Origin: Patescibacteria group bacterium
Lineage (GTDB): Bacteria > Patescibacteriota > Patescibacteriia > SG8-24
Reading direction: 5' to 3'
Assembly: GCA_028714475.1 (NCBI GenBank)
Contig: JAQTNC010000009.1
Location: forward strand, 1 to 48,581
Length of the DNA: 48,581 nucleotides
Position numbers and translations under genes: made by a program. Positions within the stretch are counted from its first letter, which is position 1, and the number at the start of each line of letters is the position of its first letter. The notes under the pieces are model-generated. The model was not told the origin of the DNA. It saw only the letters and a program-made list of their open reading frames with translations, and did not search any database. This document shows, piece after piece, positions 2,688 to 21,355 of this stretch.

Positions 2688-2868
2688 GAATGAAGACTCC
2701 CCGGGCTCACGCCCGGGGTATCTAACGCCCCATCCTGTTTCATTCACCGTAGCCCACTGCCCCCTACGCCCTCCGGGCTTCGGGGGATTCACGCGTCAGG
2801 AACCCGGGCTGACCCCACTACGCAATGCTTCGTGGGGCACCGCGCCCGGGGTATTCGGCGGAGGTGAA
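2688..2868. repeat. dispersed hairpin-rich element, copy 1
   Basis: shares gaatgaagactccccgg...cccatcctgtttcattcaccgtagcccactgcccc...ctccgggcttcgggggattcacgcgtcagg...cccggggtattcggcggaggtgaa with 13072-13305. Confidence 0.9.
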
Positions 2869-2897
2869 CAAAAAGCGGCCGCGCGCGGCTGCCGCTC
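2869..2897 (-). terminator. intrinsic terminator of the thioredoxin-like gene
   Basis: minus strand GCGGCAGCCGCGCGCGGCCGCTTTTTGTT. Confidence 0.6.
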
Positions 2898-10957: not shown

Positions 10958-11081
10958 GGCAGCCGTTAGACGGGATGCGATGTGCTCGGCTGGAGCGAGC
11001 GGAGCCGTGAGGCGCACTAATTGGTGCGCCGGAACGGTCCGCGAGTGAAGCCGAGTGCAGCGCGCCCGTCCAACGGCTGCC
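10958..11081. repeat. about 124-nt long imperfect palindrome (giant hairpin)
   Basis: GGCAGCCGTTaGACGGG / CCCGTCcAACGGCTGCC outer arms, further paired inner segments, apical GGCGCAC-taattg-GTGCGCC. Confidence 0.8.
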
Positions 11082-13052: not shown

Positions 13053-13071
13053 TCGAGAGAAAAACACCGCG

Positions 13072-13305
13072 GAATGAAGACTCCCCGGCCTCACGGCCGG
13101 GGTATCTAACACCCCATCCTGTTTCATTCACCGTAGCCCACTGCCCCCTGTTTCGCTCGCGAAGAGTTTGAAACGCTCGCGAAACCCCGGGCGGCCCATG
13201 CCGCCCGTGCGAAGCTGCGCCCGCTCGCTTCGCACCCCTCCGGGCTTCGGGGGATTCACGCGTCAGGAACCCCGGGCTGACGCCCGGGGTATTCGGCGGA
13301 GGTGA
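13072..13305. repeat. dispersed hairpin-rich element, copy 2, inside the loop of a terminator
   Basis: shared ends with 2688-2868; flanked by acaccgcgg ... ccgcggtgt inverted repeats. Confidence 0.9.
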
Positions 13306-13330
13306 ATAATCCGCGGTGTCATTTTTTTCT

Positions 13331-16300
13331 TCAAGGCGTTGTCGTCTCCTGAGGGGCGGGGGTCTCTTCCGGGGCCGGCGCTTCGGGGGCGGGCGGCAGT
13401 TCCGACGGCGGGGGCGTTGAGCCGAGGTCGGCCGGAGCATCGCCTGGTGGCGGAACGATTTCTGTCGGCGTCTCGGCCGCTGGCGCCGCCTCAACCTCCG
13501 GCGGCGTCGTCTCGTCAACCACCTGAATCACCCAGTAGTCGAAGACCGTATCCTCCGGCACCGGCTGTTCCGTCTTGACGATGAACATCCCGTCGTCGAT
13601 GAGCTCGATCCACCACTCGCTCTTGGGGCTCCGACGGAAGGTGACGAAGACCTTGGAGTTCTTTTTCACCGAGGTATTTTGTACCGTCACGTCGGAATTG
13701 CCGGCCGGGATGAACGCCGACCCGATGGTTTTGCTCGTGTCGGTAACCTTGACGCCCGCCTGCTCGGTCACCATCTCCTTGACGGTCAGCTTGCCGTTGC
13801 CGTCAATGGACCAGAGGCCGTCGATACCTTCAAGCGCGCCGATGCCGATGATGGGCTGACCGTTCATGTTGGGCAGGCTGGTCGCGCCGGCGAGCGAACC
13901 GGTCGAGGCGCTGTTCGCGGCCTGTTCTACGGCCCGGCCGTCATACCAGCCGATCTTCAGGAAGACGGTTATCGTGCCGACGCCGATTGCATCCGCTTCG
14001 CCGTGGCCGGTGGCGGGATCGAAGGGCTCGAGCGCGATGCCGACGACATAGGAGTTCGGGTCGGCCTTCTTGCCGACGCCAGGAACGTTGGCGATGGCGA
14101 CGGCGTCGCCGATGGCGATGGGCCCGTTCTCGAGATTTACCTTCACGGTAACGCGGCCGGCAACCGTCACGGGATAGGTGTCGATCTCGTCGGGTCCGGC
14201 AAGATAACCAGGACGTTCGGCAACGACGCCAGCGACCAAGTATCCGTTCGTAACCTTCGTGCTGTCCGAACGCTTGACGTTGCCCGGGTTGGCCACATCA
14301 ACCATCACGATGTCGCCTGCGGTCAGGTAGTCGCCGGACGGCATGGCTTCCGCGAACCCGGTCGAAGGTGCGCTGAAGCCGGAAGCGCTCGTCGTGAGGC
14401 GCTCGGAGACGGCATCGTAGCCGAGCGAGGCGCCCGCCGAACCGCCTAATTTCAGATGACCCTTGATGGCCGCGTCGCCGTTGCTGCCGAAGAAGGCGAT
14501 TTCCTGGCCCTCGTCGTTGGTTATCGACAAGCGTTGGTCCGTCGCGTCAGTCACAATGTTGGAAAGCGAGATGCGGCGCGTGGTTAGCTGATTGGTGACG
14601 GAATCCCAAGAGGCTCCAGCGAATGCCAAGGTCTTGGAGTTGGCAGTCTGGGCATCCACCGTCGGCGTTCCATTCGTCTTAATTTCGTAGGCCGAACTGC
14701 CGTTGCCATCAAGCTGGAGTGCGCGGTCGTGCACATCCTTGATGGCGCCGAAGAGAATGGCCGTCAGATTGCCGTACTCGATGCCTTGGATGGAGCCGTC
14801 GACATTGTGAGTCACGACCTGCGGGTACAGCTCGGCCACATCTTCGGCGATGAAGCCGATGGTCGGGCCGGCGGAGCCGGGCGCTTTCCAGGTGTAGCTG
14901 ACCGGCTGGAGCCGATAAAATTTGCTTTCATCGAAGGGCAACGCCGCGATATTGTCCTTGTATCGCCGCGAGGATGAACAGGTCTGGATCGTGCCGACGT
15001 CATTGCCGGATCCGCTCGTGCACAGCGACACGCCCGCACCGACGGAGGGGACGTAAATTGCGGTGTTGCCGGCGGCGACGTACAGGCCGTAGTTGGTGTC
15101 AGCGCCGCTCGCGTCAGCATAGATGCCGTAGTTGGTCGTGGCATTGACGTCGCCGTCGTAAACACCGGTCGACTGCACCCGCAGGCCGTACTTGTTGGCT
15201 GCGGTCGTGGAATTGGTCGTGGCGTTCGAGATGTCCAGACCGTAGTTGTCGGCGAAGGCATCGTTCGTCAGCTCGACGTAGCCGCCGTACCGGTTGCCGG
15301 GGTTCGACGAGGTGTTGGGCGAGGTGTTGGTGACGTAGAGGCCGTAGTCCTTGCCGCTGTACCAGTTGCCGGTCGCCGACACGTACGCGCCGTACTTCGT
15401 CGGGGAATCGACGGTGCCGGTGAACGTGGCGGTGTTGTCGAGCTTGGCGCCATACAGGTTGGCGTTGTTGCCGGTCGACCAGGCGCCGCTCAAAAGCCCG
15501 CTCACGCCGTACTGGTTCGAGGCCGGGCTCCCGGTCGCCACGTTGATCTGGCCGTAGATGGCGTAGTTCGAGCTGCCGCCGGCCGCCGAGCCGTAGAGGC
15601 CCATGGCCATCGCGCCACTGCCGGTGGTGTTGTCGGACGCGGTGAAGTAGCCGCCGTAGACCGTGGTCGTCGAGCCGACGCTGTTGGTGCCGGTGTCCGA
15701 CGCGGCGACATTCAGGCCGTAAATGGTGTCGCTGCCGGCACCGACACCCATGTTCCCGGAATGGGTGACGCTGATCTTCTGGCCGTAACGCGTCAGGGCG
15801 GACGTGCCGCTGTCGGTCATGTCGAGGTTGACGCCGACCGCGTTTCCGGCCATCGCGCCGCTGTAGGTCGCGTTAATCAGGCTGCCGGTGGTGATGGCGG
15901 AAGTGGAAGAGATGCTCAAGGCCGAGCCGGTGGTGAGAGAGTTGGCGGTCAGGGCGTAGCCGGCGGAGCCGGCCGCGCCAGTCACCTGGGCGACAGCACC
16001 CGTCGAGCCATTCACCGTGAAGTTTTCGTTACCGGCGCCGTCGCCAACCGCGAGGGAAGCGGACGGGCCCGTGTCGCCAATGCCGACGTAGCCGCGGTCG
16101 CTGATCACGAACTTCGTGGCGCCCGAGGCGTCGTCGGCGCGGAAGAGGCTGCTCTTGAGGTTGATGGTCTGCGAGGTGCCGTTGCCGAGCGGCGCGTCGA
16201 CGGTGAGGTTGTTGTCGTCGGCGATGGCCGTGACCGTGGCGTAGGTCGAGGCCGCGGAGGAGAGCGAGATGCGGTCGCCGATGCCGACGTTGTGGGTGAA

Positions 16301-19300
16301 CCACGCGCCGTTGCCGTTGTTGGCGGTGATGGTGGTCGTGTTGTTGGCGACCGTCGTGTCCGCGAAGGACTGGAGGGAGTCGGTGAGGGGCGAGACGTCC
16401 GCGAGGCCCTTGACGGTCAGGCGGGAGAGCCTCGACGCGCCGGTGCCGACGCCGACGTTGCCGAGGTTGGTGACGCGCAGGCGCTCGGTGGCCGTGGTGA
16501 AGGGGTCGCCGCTGTACCTCGTGCCGAAGACGAGGTCGCCGCTGTTGCTGCTCCGGTGGAAGGTCTCCTGGTAGCCGATGTAGGCCTGCGAAGTGGTCGC
16601 GGACGAGAGGTAGCTATGGCTCCCGAAGCCGATGAGGGTGTACATGTTGATGACGCTCTCGGCGCCGCCGAGGTGGATGTACTCGTCGGTCAGCTGGATG
16701 GTCGTCGATGCCGACGCGCGCGCTATCTGCAGCCTGGCGACCGGGGTCTTGGGGGTCTGGGCCGTGTAGTACCCGGTGCCGATGCCGACGTTGCCGGCGG
16801 TGCTGTCGGTGACGATGGCGAAGTTGTTGCCGTTCATGGTGCCCGGTCCGGTGATCTTGAGGCCAATGAGCGTGCCCGAGTTGACGTTGCCTTCCGTGAC
16901 GTTCAGGCCGACGGCGGTCAGCGTGCCGGCCGTCTGGGTGAGCGCCGGCGTGTTGACATTCAGGCCGGTCCAGTTGAGGGTGCCGCTCGTGGTCGCGACG
17001 TTCCCGGCCGCCGACAGGTTGAATGCGTTCATGTAGAAGGTGTTGCCCGCGCCCTGCGAGTACGCGCCGGTCGCCGTCTGGAAGCCGTTCCAGGTGCAGT
17101 ACGGGTTGCCCGTGCAGCCGGTGAGCGTCGGGGCGGCCACGCTCACGCCGGTGACGGTCTTGTTGGCGAGGCCGGTCGTGTTCATGGACGAACTAACGAG
17201 GAGGCCGTTGGTGGTCGCGGCGCCGCCGGTGGCGGTCGAGTTGTCGACGAGGCCGATTGAGACGAGACTGCCGGTCTCCGCGAGGCCCGTATGAACGTAG
17301 GTGGCGCTGTCGATGGCGAGGAGGCTCCCCGTAGTCATGGCCGAGCCGCCGCCCAAGGTGAGGCCGGTCTGGCTCGTGAGCGTGCCCCAGTTCCAGGTCT
17401 GAGCGAAGTTGGCGTTGGCGATGGTGTTCGTCGCGGTCGCGGCCAGGAGCTGATCGAGGCGGGTGGAGGACGCGGGCGCGGCCCAAGAAAGGGTGCCGTT
17501 GCCGGCCGCGTCAGTAAGCACCGTGCCAGCCGCACCGAAGGCTGCCGGGAACGTGTACACAAGGCTCGTAGCCTGCGCCTGCGCCTTGAACGCAGTGTAG
17601 TCGGAGCCGGAGCCGGAGGGCTCGAGGAAACGCAGTTCGGTTGCGGCCGCGTTGCCGCCGAGGGCAACTGTCGCGTTCCTGACAGTCGCGGTGCCGCTCG
17701 TCGCGCCTATCACGAGCGAAGTAGCCGCGCCAGCTAAGTTGACCGTGGTAGCGTTGGCGTTCACCAGGTTGAATGTCCCGGCCGTGGTAGCGATGGTCCC
17801 GCCGTTCGCGTTGATGGTGCCGCTGTTCGTGATGTCGGTTACACCGACAAGGTTGTTGGCTTGGAGATCAAGGCTGGTCGTGGAAAGGATCGCCTCAAGC
17901 GTCTCCGAGCCAGCATCGCCAATGTAGATGCGGAAGTCGCTCGCGGCCGCGCCGGTGACCGGCTGTTTGAAGATGACGTTTCGATCAACGCTCTGGGCGC
18001 CGTCCCAATACGCACCGCGCATGATGAACTGTGGCGAATCCTTGAGCGTTGAGCCAGCGGTCGCTGCGGCCGAGGCAATGTGTGTCTCGCCGGAGTTGAA
18101 GACCGCGAAGCGATTCCGTGAGTAGTCGTTCTCGACGAGGCGAATCTGCTCCCAGCCGTCGGGCGCGGTGGTGAACTTCTGGATGGTCAGCGCGCGGGCC
18201 GGCGCCTGCTGGGCGAGGTACATGCCGTAGTTCGGGATGGTGACCTGCTCCCAAAGCGCCGTGAAAAGGGTGCTGTTGCCGAGGCCGGCCGCCTGCACCG
18301 TGGAAATGATGCCCTTAGTGCCATCCGTGAACGTCGCCGCTTCCATGGCCACGGAGGAGGTACCGTAGAGAGCGGCATAGATCGCGTCGCCGTGGCCCTG
18401 ATGGATGACCTTGAACACGCCGTTCTCGGTGTCTTCCTGGTTGCTGGTAATCTCGCCGTAGATGCCGCCAAGCATGTTCGCGGCACCGGTCGGGTCGACA
18501 CGCATGTACATGGCAGCGCTTTCATTGGAGCCCCCGACGGCTATCGGATAGATGCGCGAGTTGTAGCGCACCGTGAGCGGACTCGGTTCCAGGTTGCTGA
18601 TGGTGTAGTTGCCGACCTCGAGGAGATCCACGCCGCTGTCTTTGATGTGCAGACGACCGGAAGGCGTCGTTGCGCCGATGCCGAGCCTGTTGTTCGTGTC
18701 GTCCCAGAAAAAGTTGGCGTTGTCCTCACTGTAGGTGCCGGAAGCGCCAGCGAAGACGACCGAGCCCTGGGTGAAGGCGGTCGCGGTGCCCGTGCCGCCG
18801 CTGCCGACAGGCAGGGTGCCGGTGAACGTAACGTTGCCGGCGGAGGAGAGCGCAATGTTGCCCGAAGCGGAGACGGCGAAGGTGCCGCCCGCGTCGGGGA
18901 GGGTCCAAGTGTGGGGAGCGGTCAGGTCGGCGTTGGTGATGGTGCCGGTGAAGCGACCCACGCCGCCAGCCGTGACCGAGACGGAGATGAGGTCGTCGGT
19001 CACGGTCGAAGTGTCAACCGTGAGGCCGCGCACAATGGCGCCGCCGGTCAGCGTCACGGCGGTCGCGGTCGTGGATCCACGGCCGGTGACGAGGGCGAGG
19101 GTGTCGGATTCGGTGATGGTGCCGGTGAACGTGCCCGAGCAGGTGAGGTTACCCGTCGCGCCGTCCACGGTACAACCGTTGCCGCCGGAACCGCCAGCGA
19201 GGTTCAGCGTCGAGACGGAAGTGCCGACGTTGAATATCGCCGCCGAACTGTCGAGGTCGCCGCCATTCACGTTGAGGTCACCCAAGGTCGAAATATTCCC

Positions 19301-21355
19301 GGTTGCCCCCGCCACGGTGAACGTTTCCGTCCCCGCGCCGTCGCCGACGGTGAGAGTTGCCGAGGGCGTCGAATCGCCGATGCCGACGTTGCCGGAAACG
19401 ATGAGGCCGTTCAGCGGCGGCGTCGTGGTCGAGACATTGTAGCCGACGGATGCTCCGCCATTATTGAACCCGACCGCAAAGTTGCCGTTAATCGCCAGGT
19501 AGTGGTTGGTGGGATCAACGATGTCCCAGGCGATGTTGGTATTGTCGCCGCCGCTTGTCCGGATGCTGTGCGCGTAGGTCTTGCCGGTGGCCGCTCCGGC
19601 CCAGCCAAAAACGAGTTTCGAGGCGCCGGCCACGGATGGAGCGCCAATATCGAGCACGACCGAGGGGCTCCCGGTTGACGCTAGGCCGTATGACGTCTCC
19701 GTAACGGCTTGGCCACCCGTGTCCGTATAGACGCCGGGCGTCGCCTGCTGCTCGAGCTGTGCGCCCCAGAGAATAACGCCGGTATTAGTGCCGGTCTCAA
19801 TGCGGAAAGTAGACGTTCCGGTCGAGCCGGCGGTAAAGGCCTGCGTTACCGAGAAGCGCTGCCAGGAGGTCGTGACGATAGCCGCCGTCGCCGTACCGGT
19901 CTCGTTGCCGGAACTCACGCGCAAGTTGACCGTCGCCGTACCGGCAGTCCGTTTCATCCAGACGCTACCCGTCCAAGTCGTTGATGCCGTGACTGGCGCG
20001 CCGGATGCCGATTGCGTGACGCCATTGGCCGCTCCGGCGCCTCCCGTGGTGACCGTATCCGCGGACACAACCCCGTTCGGCGCAGCTTGGCCGTTGGCAG
20101 TTATCGCAATCGTGCTCTCCTTGGTCCAGTTGACGTTGTCGAACACTTCGGAATAGGTAACGAAATTCTCGAACCGTCCGAAGCCGCCATATGCTGACGC
20201 CAGTTGACCACTGTTGAGAAGAACGTTGCCGCCATCTCCTACGGTCAGCTTCTGCGAAGGGGTCGCCGTACCAAGGCCGACTTTGCCGGTGCCGTCCATG
20301 GTGAATCCAATAAACCCATTCGTGAAGAGGCCCAACTTATTCGTCACGTCGTCGTACTGGATGCCGCCCAACGTCGTGCCGAAGGAGAGGTACGAGGTGG
20401 CCAACTGGTCGACATACAGCACATCCAAAAAGTTCACGTTGTCGTACAGCCAGAAATTCTGCGTTCCGTCGCCGTTGTAGTCGTTACCCATGGTCCAGAG
20501 CGACGCGTCCGCATTGTCTGTCCAGCGGACACCCACGTAGTCCGACGTCAGGTGGGTCGCCTTGAGCGTTAGGCCGACCGTGTCCGACACGGCGATGCGG
20601 GCGCCGGTCGCGCCGGACACATCGAGCGTGCCGGCGATGGCTGTGTCCCCTTCCGCATCCACGCTGAAACGGGCCGCGCCGTTGTTCCGAAGATTGATGA
20701 GCAAACCGTTCGCGGGTGGCGCCGCCGGGTTCGCCGTGATGACGCCGTTCGCAATCGTCGGCGTTCCCGTGAGTGTCAGCAGGCCAGAAGCGTCGGTCAC
20801 CGGCACGAAGGCCGCCGTGCCGCCGATCGCCGAAGTGTCGAGATCATCCAAGAGATCGGCGTTCATCGAGTAAGGAGCAGCCACGATGCGCTTGCGGGGC
20901 GCAAGCGTCTCGTACACCGTCGGCACTGCGGTCTCCACCCGGATTTCGAGCCACCTAGTCTCGTTGCCGGAGAAAAGACTCGTCGGCATGACGTTATCCC
21001 CGGCCTCGCCGAGGAGCGTCGAGAACGTGCCGGAGGACACCGTCACGCTCTTTGCCGTCTCCGCGCCACAAGCCCCACGTGCCGTCCATTTGCAGTTGCC
21101 GGCGACGGCGGCGTCGTAGATGACGAACTTGACGTTATGGGCACCGTCGACCACGGCCACTCCGCTCGTATCCGTGAGGCGCGCCTGATAATTGAGGACC
21201 GTATTCGTGGACGGACCGGAAGCCGAGGCCATGGCGAAGGACAGGGCAATGACCCCGCCCGCCGCCAAAAGTGTAAAAAAAGCAGCACCAAACCCATTCG
21301 GATCAGTGCCGGTGGCGATTATCTGTCCCCAAATTGCCCCGATTTTTCGGCGCAT
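13331..21355 (-). CDS. giant secreted surface/fibre-like protein with internal S74-type domain
   Basis: 2674 aa; N-terminal hydrophobic segment; repeated G.VGIG...PS..LTV modules; phage-fibre-like WGAQLEQ segment; SSRRYKDNIAALPFDESKFYRLQPVSYTWK...GFIAEDVAELYPQVV; Pro/Glu-rich C-terminus. Confidence 0.93.
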   Translation of the reverse strand: MRRKIGAIWGQIIATGTDPNGFGAAFFTLLAAGGVIALSFAMASASGPSTNTVLNYQARLTDTSGVAVVDGAHNVKFVIYDAAVAGNCKWTARGACGAETAKSVTVSSGTFSTLLGEAGDNVMPTSLFSGNETRWLEIRVETAVPTVYETLAPRKRIVAAPYSMNADLLDDLDTSAIGGTAAFVPVTDASGLLTLTGTPTIANGVITANPAAPPANGLLINLRNNGAARFSVDAEGDTAIAGTLDVSGATGARIAVSDTVGLTLKATHLTSDYVGVRWTDNADASLWTMGNDYNGDGTQNFWLYDNVNFLDVLYVDQLATSYLSFGTTLGGIQYDDVTNKLGLFTNGFIGFTMDGTGKVGLGTATPSQKLTVGDGGNVLLNSGQLASAYGGFGRFENFVTYSEVFDNVNWTKESTIAITANGQAAPNGVVSADTVTTGGAGAANGVTQSASGAPVTASTTWTGSVWMKRTAGTATVNLRVSSGNETGTATAAIVTTSWQRFSVTQAFTAGSTGTSTFRIETGTNTGVILWGAQLEQQATPGVYTDTGGQAVTETSYGLASTGSPSVVLDIGAPSVAGASKLVFGWAGAATGKTYAHSIRTSGGDNTNIAWDIVDPTNHYLAINGNFAVGFNNGGASVGYNVSTTTPPLNGLIVSGNVGIGDSTPSATLTVGDGAGTETFTVAGATGNISTLGDLNVNGGDLDSSAAIFNVGTSVSTLNLAGGSGGNGCTVDGATGNLTCSGTFTGTITESDTLALVTGRGSTTATAVTLTGGAIVRGLTVDTSTVTDDLISVSVTAGGVGRFTGTITNADLTAPHTWTLPDAGGTFAVSASGNIALSSAGNVTFTGTLPVGSGGTGTATAFTQGSVVFAGASGTYSEDNANFFWDDTNNRLGIGATTPSGRLHIKDSGVDLLEVGNYTISNLEPSPLTVRYNSRIYPIAVGGSNESAAMYMRVDPTGAANMLGGIYGEITSNQEDTENGVFKVIHQGHGDAIYAALYGTSSVAMEAATFTDGTKGIISTVQAAGLGNSTLFTALWEQVTIPNYGMYLAQQAPARALTIQKFTTAPDGWEQIRLVENDYSRNRFAVFNSGETHIASAAATAGSTLKDSPQFIMRGAYWDGAQSVDRNVIFKQPVTGAAASDFRIYIGDAGSETLEAILSTTSLDLQANNLVGVTDITNSGTINANGGTIATTAGTFNLVNANATTVNLAGAATSLVIGATSGTATVRNATVALGGNAAATELRFLEPSGSGSDYTAFKAQAQATSLVYTFPAAFGAAGTVLTDAAGNGTLSWAAPASSTRLDQLLAATATNTIANANFAQTWNWGTLTSQTGLTLGGGSAMTTGSLLAIDSATYVHTGLAETGSLVSIGLVDNSTATGGAATTNGLLVSSSMNTTGLANKTVTGVSVAAPTLTGCTGNPYCTWNGFQTATGAYSQGAGNTFYMNAFNLSAAGNVATTSGTLNWTGLNVNTPALTQTAGTLTAVGLNVTEGNVNSGTLIGLKITGPGTMNGNNFAIVTDSTAGNVGIGTGYYTAQTPKTPVARLQIARASASTTIQLTDEYIHLGGAESVINMYTLIGFGSHSYLSSATTSQAYIGYQETFHRSSNSGDLVFGTRYSGDPFTTATERLRVTNLGNVGVGTGASRLSRLTVKGLADVSPLTDSLQSFADTTVANNTTTITANNGNGAWFTHNVGIGDRISLSSAASTYATVTAIADDNNLTVDAPLGNGTSQTINLKSSLFRADDASGATKFVISDRGYVGIGDTGPSASLAVGDGAGNENFTVNGSTGAVAQVTGAAGSAGYALTANSLTTGSALSISSTSAITTGSLINATYSGAMAGNAVGVNLDMTDSGTSALTRYGQKISVTHSGNMGVGAGSDTIYGLNVAASDTGTNSVGSTTTVYGGYFTASDNTTGSGAMAMGLYGSAAGGSSNYAIYGQINVATGSPASNQYGVSGLLSGAWSTGNNANLYGAKLDNTATFTGTVDSPTKYGAYVSATGNWYSGKDYGLYVTNTSPNTSSNPGNRYGGYVELTNDAFADNYGLDISNATTNSTTAANKYGLRVQSTGVYDGDVNATTNYGIYADASGADTNYGLYVAAGNTAIYVPSVGAGVSLCTSGSGNDVGTIQTCSSSRRYKDNIAALPFDESKFYRLQPVSYTWKAPGSAGPTIGFIAEDVAELYPQVVTHNVDGSIQGIEYGNLTAILFGAIKDVHDRALQLDGNGSSAYEIKTNGTPTVDAQTANSKTLAFAGASWDSVTNQLTTRRISLSNIVTDATDQRLSITNDEGQEIAFFGSNGDAAIKGHLKLGGSAGASLGYDAVSERLTTSASGFSAPSTGFAEAMPSGDYLTAGDIVMVDVANPGNVKRSDSTKVTNGYLVAGVVAERPGYLAGPDEIDTYPVTVAGRVTVKVNLENGPIAIGDAVAIANVPGVGKKADPNSYVVGIALEPFDPATGHGEADAIGVGTITVFLKIGWYDGRAVEQAANSASTGSLAGATSLPNMNGQPIIGIGALEGIDGLWSIDGNGKLTVKEMVTEQAGVKVTDTSKTIGSAFIPAGNSDVTVQNTSVKKNSKVFVTFRRSPKSEWWIELIDDGMFIVKTEQPVPEDTVFDYWVIQVVDETTPPEVEAAPAAETPTEIVPPPGDAPADLGSTPPPSELPPAPEAPAPEETPAPQETTTP
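14690..14980 (-). other. S74/intramolecular chaperone-like domain within the giant protein
   Basis: SSRRYKDNI...IGFIAEDVAELYP...IEYGNLTAILFGAIKDV. Confidence 0.85.

Follow-up and report, generated by a model that had tools for sequence, protein, structure and literature searches.

The locus downstream of a giant surface-protein gene (stop at 13331) in the window, that is, the whole stretch of 48,581 nucleotides that was analysed, raises the question of what kind of hairpin-rich repeat lies there, how it could have come to interrupt an intrinsic terminator, and whether this position is peculiar to one copy or the habit of a family. The repeat copy occupies 13074-13305 on the minus strand (232 nt from cleavage site to cleavage site, nested repeat included), and it is very probably a gene-less PATE, or MITE, of an IS200-type insertion sequence (IS), served in trans by a Y1 TnpA and inserted 3' of TT[G/A]T, mostly at terminators. 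The anatomy of the ends, the agreement of guides with cleavage sites, the autonomous relatives, the lack of a host Y1 gene and the association with terminators, all read from sequence, are the grounds for this assignment. The original prediction had placed the element at 13072-13305; the limit at 13305 is exact, while that at 13072 lay 2 nt too far out.

On the minus strand the locus reads GACACCGCGGA-TTAT|TCACCTCCGCC ... GAGTCTTCAT|TCCGCGGTGTTTTTC or, with longer flanks, GACACCGCGGATTAT|TCACCTCCGCC...GTCTTCAT|TCCGCGGTGTTTTTC. As had been predicted, joining the flanks without the element restores a terminator, with a perfect 10-bp stem, a TTAT loop and a T-tract. Its left arm ACACCGCGGA lies at 13310-13319 and its right arm TCCGCGGTGT at 13064-13073, the arm and T-tract together spanning 13060-13073 (all minus strand). 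The left cleavage or target tetranucleotide TTAT (13306-13309, minus strand), which agrees with the guide AATA of the element, coincides exactly with this terminator's loop. An A-run precedes the left arm and, read on the plus strand, provides the convergent gene with a T-run, so that the terminator can serve both convergent genes. That the arms are chance inverted repeats or a part of the element is very improbable: the genome is rich in GC palindromes, but a perfect 10-bp stem directly at both edges of the element, followed by a T-tract and set between convergent genes, is hard to attribute to chance, and the arms ACACCGCGGA/TCCGCGGTGT are missing from the flanks of every other copy, which makes them a property of the site and not of the element. 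The objection foreseen with the original prediction, namely that the flanks belong to the repeat consensus, is thereby answered. The empty allele is predicted to read ...GCGGATTAT-TCCGCGG..., with the junction ...GACACCGCGGATTAT|TCCGCGGTGTTTTTC..., and the search for it among 10 same-family genomes, the nearest of which belong to other genera, yielded no allele without the insertion. The adjoining giant protein (13331-21355, minus strand, 2674 aa) has as its only Pfam match an S74 endosialidase-chaperone domain near residues 2128-2181, which is unusual for a bacterial surface-type protein.

A search of the genome to which the window belongs (G000; 1.41 Mb, 43 contigs, 60% GC) resolved the supposed 234-nt repeat into two families. 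Blocks 1-70 and 157-234 of the query are found together at 13 places, defining a compact element of approximately 150 bp that has a conserved middle hairpin of its own, whereas block 71-156 is found alone at about a dozen other places. The latter, hereafter the C module, is a separate dispersed three-hairpin repeat of approximately 86 nt and is not part of the PATE consensus; in the window it lies in the apex of the middle hairpin of the element (about 13150-13235, minus strand), and the copy at 13074-13305 is longer than the family norm because of it. The dispersed element of the original prediction is thus real, although it is not a single unit. The outer flanks of the 13 two-ended copies are unrelated. 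Measured against the compact reference copy, the others show 77-98% identity, a spread indicating that the family holds both older and younger members. Relics are also present, with C2_61707 being a 45-bp fusion of both ends and C13_20169 a solo right end. No full-length copy was found among the 10 same-family genomes, and with full-length copies confined in this set to the genome of origin no empty allele could be found. Phage records gave no match to the element, and no Rfam family scored above the cut-off for the element or the nested repeat, only the intact adjoining tRNAs passing it. The element itself lacks a T-tract and is not terminator-like.

The second copy in the window, initially placed at 2688-2868, is also real, with limits now set at 2690-2867 (minus strand). 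An intrinsic terminator hairpin followed by TTTTTGT| stands directly 5' of it (2873-2897, minus strand). This copy carries an extra hairpin of approximately 30 nt in the loop of its left-end hairpin (about 2813-2842), a feature common to three PATE copies (the others being L230 and L252), and the apex of the middle hairpin of PATE occurs in four versions; the hairpin tips seem to swap or acquire hairpins repeatedly.

Palindromic repeats of other kinds are dispersed in the same genome. The C module also occupies the variable-arm region of degenerate tRNA-Ser/tRNA-Leu copies that adjoin intact tRNA genes (L021:144-209, L025:1501-1586 and L035:645-704), and in L025 it forms a hairpin chain with the tRNA-Leu anticodon arm. 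A further palindromic element, bounded by GGCAGCCGCTGGACGGGATGC...CCGGACCAGCGGCTGCC, is dispersed over L031, L034, L040 and the window (about 10958-10978), and some of its copies contain the same three-hairpin core. Variants with GTAGCGGCG...CGCCGCTAC type ends around this core (L027, L030, L032 and L037) resemble double-foot REPs, in a genome with no detected Y1 gene. The palindrome CCCCGCAGTACTGCGGGG has 17 sites in 815 kb of the genome (e.g. L228:5986, L250:12170 and about 46522 in the window), and it often sits at the apex of longer palindromes that are unrelated and of which some look like terminators.

The consensus of the element on the minus strand is TCACCTCCGCCG-AATA-[CCCCGGGCgtcaGCCCGGGG]...GATA-[CCCCGGGCgtgaGCCCGGGG]-AGTCTTCAT, with a subterminal hairpin at either end, the two sharing one orientation, that is, direct and not inverted. 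In the copy at 13074-13305 the left guide AATA (13290-13293) stands at the foot of the left-end hairpin CCCCGGGC-gtca-GCCCGGGG (13270-13289), which matches the left ends of autonomous IS (L098/L104/L132); the right guide GATA (13103-13106) precedes the right-end hairpin CCCCGGCC-gtga-GGCCGGGG (13083-13102), and the right cleavage tetranucleotide TCAT closes the element at 13074-13077 (all minus strand). There are no terminal inverted repeats, the ends being TCACCTCC / ...CTTCAT, and comparison of the flanks over the copies reveals no evident duplication. The left boundary can be fixed only to within 1-2 nt, since almost all copies continue with TCAC(C). The analysis as a whole had 14 informative copies.

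The hairpins of IS200/IS605 ends carry at their 5' foot a guide of four nucleotides, by which the tetranucleotide to be cleaved is recognised (PMC6006769, PMC5934647). The right end of the element, guide GATA with TCAT, obeys this code. At the left end, the guide AATA is accompanied by TTGT in 10 copies and by TTAT in 2, and two copies break the rule (left tetranucleotides TAGT and TAAT). The same covariation was observed in related IS, where right-end guides starting with G (GAAA, GATA, GATG) go with TCA* in 19/19 cases and those starting with A (AAAA, AATA) with TTTA/TTAT in 6/6 (Fisher p = 6e-6, uncorrected for shared descent). The register was set by eye (L118, L128, L136 and L105, for instance, were shifted or read directly), and the counts leave out ten right ends unparsed by the script and a few out of register.

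No Y1 transposase is encoded in the window, as the original prediction had it, nor was any PF01797 or A1 match found in the 43 contigs of the genome, from which the element is taken to be a non-autonomous IS200 derivative; an unbinned Y1 copy is possible with an assembly in 43 contigs. The proposed search for Y1 genes with matching ends was successful in two same-family genomes, G006 (JAHJAU01, a marine Patescibacteria MAG) and G007 (MGFG01, Ca. Uhrbacteria RIFOXYC2_FULL_47_19). Their TnpA is of the short IS200 type, with the HUH motif and the catalytic Tyr, and is encoded between hairpins CCCCGGGCGTAAGCCCGGGG. The autonomous Y1 loci on G006 C13, G007 C2 and G007 C20 have ends in common with the element, and the left end of the Ca. 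Uhrbacteria locus L132 is nearly identical (CCTCCGCCGAA..CCCCGGGCGTCAGCCC / CCTCCGCCGAAATTCCCCGGGCGTCAGCCC). G006 also contains two PATEs of another sequence, and G007 a tnpA-deleted copy. The IS200/IS605-type ends suspected at the outset are thus borne out by same-sense hairpins, guides and Y1 relatives.

In the proposed mechanism, a Y1 HUH transposase acting in trans would bind the two same-sense subterminal hairpins as single-stranded DNA and would cut 3' of TT[G/A]T in the left flank (guide AATA) and 3' of TCAT (guide GATA). The strand would be excised as a single-stranded circle and then pasted 3' of a new TT[G/A]T, which in this genome is almost always the end of a terminator T-tract (hairpin-TTTTGT|). 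For the copy at 13074-13305 the target was the TTAT loop in the terminator that the giant surface-protein gene has in common with the gene converging on it. Mobilisation is presumed to depend on a lost or unbinned transposase and to follow a single-strand pathway. The scheme corresponds to the IS608 model (PMC6006769, PMC5934647) in the same-sense hairpins, the guide at the 5' foot, cleavage in the left flank and at the right end, and the absence of target duplication. It differs from that model in the guides (AAAG/GAAT in IS608, AATA/GATA here), in the sites (TTAC/TCAA in IS608, TT[G/A]T / TCAT here) and in the terminator hairpin found here upstream of the target. The PATEs of IS200/IS605, for example the PATE-like element of Halanaerobium hydrogeniformans, are likewise ends-only elements, with both subterminal hairpins of their Y1 IS but no transposase gene, and they are mobilised in trans (PMC7290912). 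In contrast to them, the present element is approximately 150 bp long with a conserved middle hairpin and 13 two-ended copies, no transposase is left in the genome and the link with terminators is strong. On the features tested the element is, judged by its sequence, a member of the IS200/IS605 family as a PATE.

Two other identities were considered and rejected. A repeat of REP/BIME type, propagated by a domesticated RAYT (TnpA-REP), would also be hairpin-rich, intergenic and multicopy, could leave solo single-hairpin relics such as C2_61707 and C13_20169, and shares with the element a related HUH chemistry and hairpins with a foot guide (PMC8266576). This is nevertheless very unlikely, because foot, orientation and gene all fail: the feet are AATA and GATA and not GT[AG]G, the hairpins are direct within a defined two-ended unit and do not form the inverted pairs of REP/BIME systems, what the relatives encode between the same ends is a short IS200-type TnpA, and neither a RAYT gene nor any PF01797 match is present in the genome. 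The comparison with insertion into REP palindrome loops made in the original prediction is therefore abandoned. An ordinary MITE with terminal inverted repeats, mobilised by a DDE transposase, would be equally short, gene-less and dispersed, but the lack of terminal inverted repeats and of evident flank duplication, together with ends matched by IS200-type TnpA loci, leaves that origin with hardly any credibility.

With the element regarded as an IS200-type PATE, the question is whether the terminators are its targets. A T-tract borders 12 copies on the left, and 11 of these stand directly after a strict terminator hairpin, the usual site being hairpin-T(3-7)GT with insertion immediately 3' of the T-tract. 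The copy at 13074-13305 is the only one of the 13 two-ended copies within a terminator loop. Terminators are thus the habitual target, in line with the non-autonomous, terminator-using element that the original prediction had envisaged, and insertion in the loop is particular to one copy and is not the rule.

The association could be passive, the transposase accepting any TT[G/A]T, of which T-tracts are the commonest source, with survival only of insertions downstream of genes. This rival, which concerns the targeting step only and not the identity of the element, has a substantial chance of being right, if short of probable: the target TT[G/A]T is itself rich in T, intergenic 3' ends are neutral ground, 27/33 clade relatives have no strict hairpin and are often at T-rich sites, and insertions at other places may have been selected against, which could account for part of the terminator sites. 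Against it, in control sites drawn from 815 kb of the genome, a strict hairpin is present at 138/515 (27%) intergenic T-tract-G sites versus 11/12 copies (p = 6e-6) and at 237/1890 such sites overall (p = 2e-9), values that are somewhat optimistic since the strict threshold was set after inspecting the flanks of the copies. A first, permissive hairpin score had been set aside as it poorly separated copies from controls in this GC-rich genome. Moreover, GT follows the T-run in 12/12 T-tract copies versus 18.7% of 477 strict terminators sampled, although GT is partly the target itself. In the same-family genomes, 7/10 IS/PATE copies, among them the two G006 PATEs and the tnpA-deleted G007 copy, stand after terminators versus 34/287 T-run control windows (p = 5e-5), and in the wider IS200 clade, across many phyla, 6/33 IS copies do so versus 9/595 random positions, the latter not conditioned on a T-run. 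From these sequence comparisons, terminators are an enriched, not obligatory, target of the IS200 clade and the nearly exclusive target of this PATE family.

As to how and why terminators are chosen, two of their properties could be responsible: the T-tract, as the sequence shows, supplies the tetranucleotide in a genome of 60% GC, and the adjacent terminator hairpin may expose or present a single strand. A further step, tentatively advanced and not one that we would call probable, is that target choice in IS200-type elements includes the terminator hairpin itself, T-tracts and sometimes loops being safe landing sites; a hairpin on the non-template or lagging strand would then help TnpA dock. 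Terminators are also the sites of group IIC introns, which insert after intrinsic terminators (PMC4424553, citing Robart et al. 2007), directly 3' of the hairpin and T-tract, as the element does. These introns are retroelement ribozymes with a reverse transcriptase, whereas the present element is an IS200-type DNA hairpin element; the machinery is unrelated, so that the likeness is one of convergence in the target only. No group II match emerged when the element loci L001 and L003 were scanned against Rfam, and approximately 150 bp leave no space for a gene, and hence for a reverse transcriptase. The literature that was searched contained no report of IS200 elements targeting terminators, which is not proof of absence; as far as could be found, the novelty is the choice of terminators by an IS200-type element, known before for one class of mobile introns.

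At the locus itself, read-through between the two convergent genes, one of which encodes the giant surface protein, may be changed by the insertion in the loop. For the family, the IS200 guide/cleavage code proves readable from sequence alone across an uncultured bacterial group, and the targeting of PATE provides a concrete, testable rule, hairpin plus TT[G/A]T. In a streamlined genome, terminators are harmless places to land. If targeting of the hairpin is true, it would be convergent with that of group IIC introns, terminators would be a reservoir for gene-less passengers, and a terminator-homing single-stranded DNA transposon would represent a second, independent route to the strategy of these introns.
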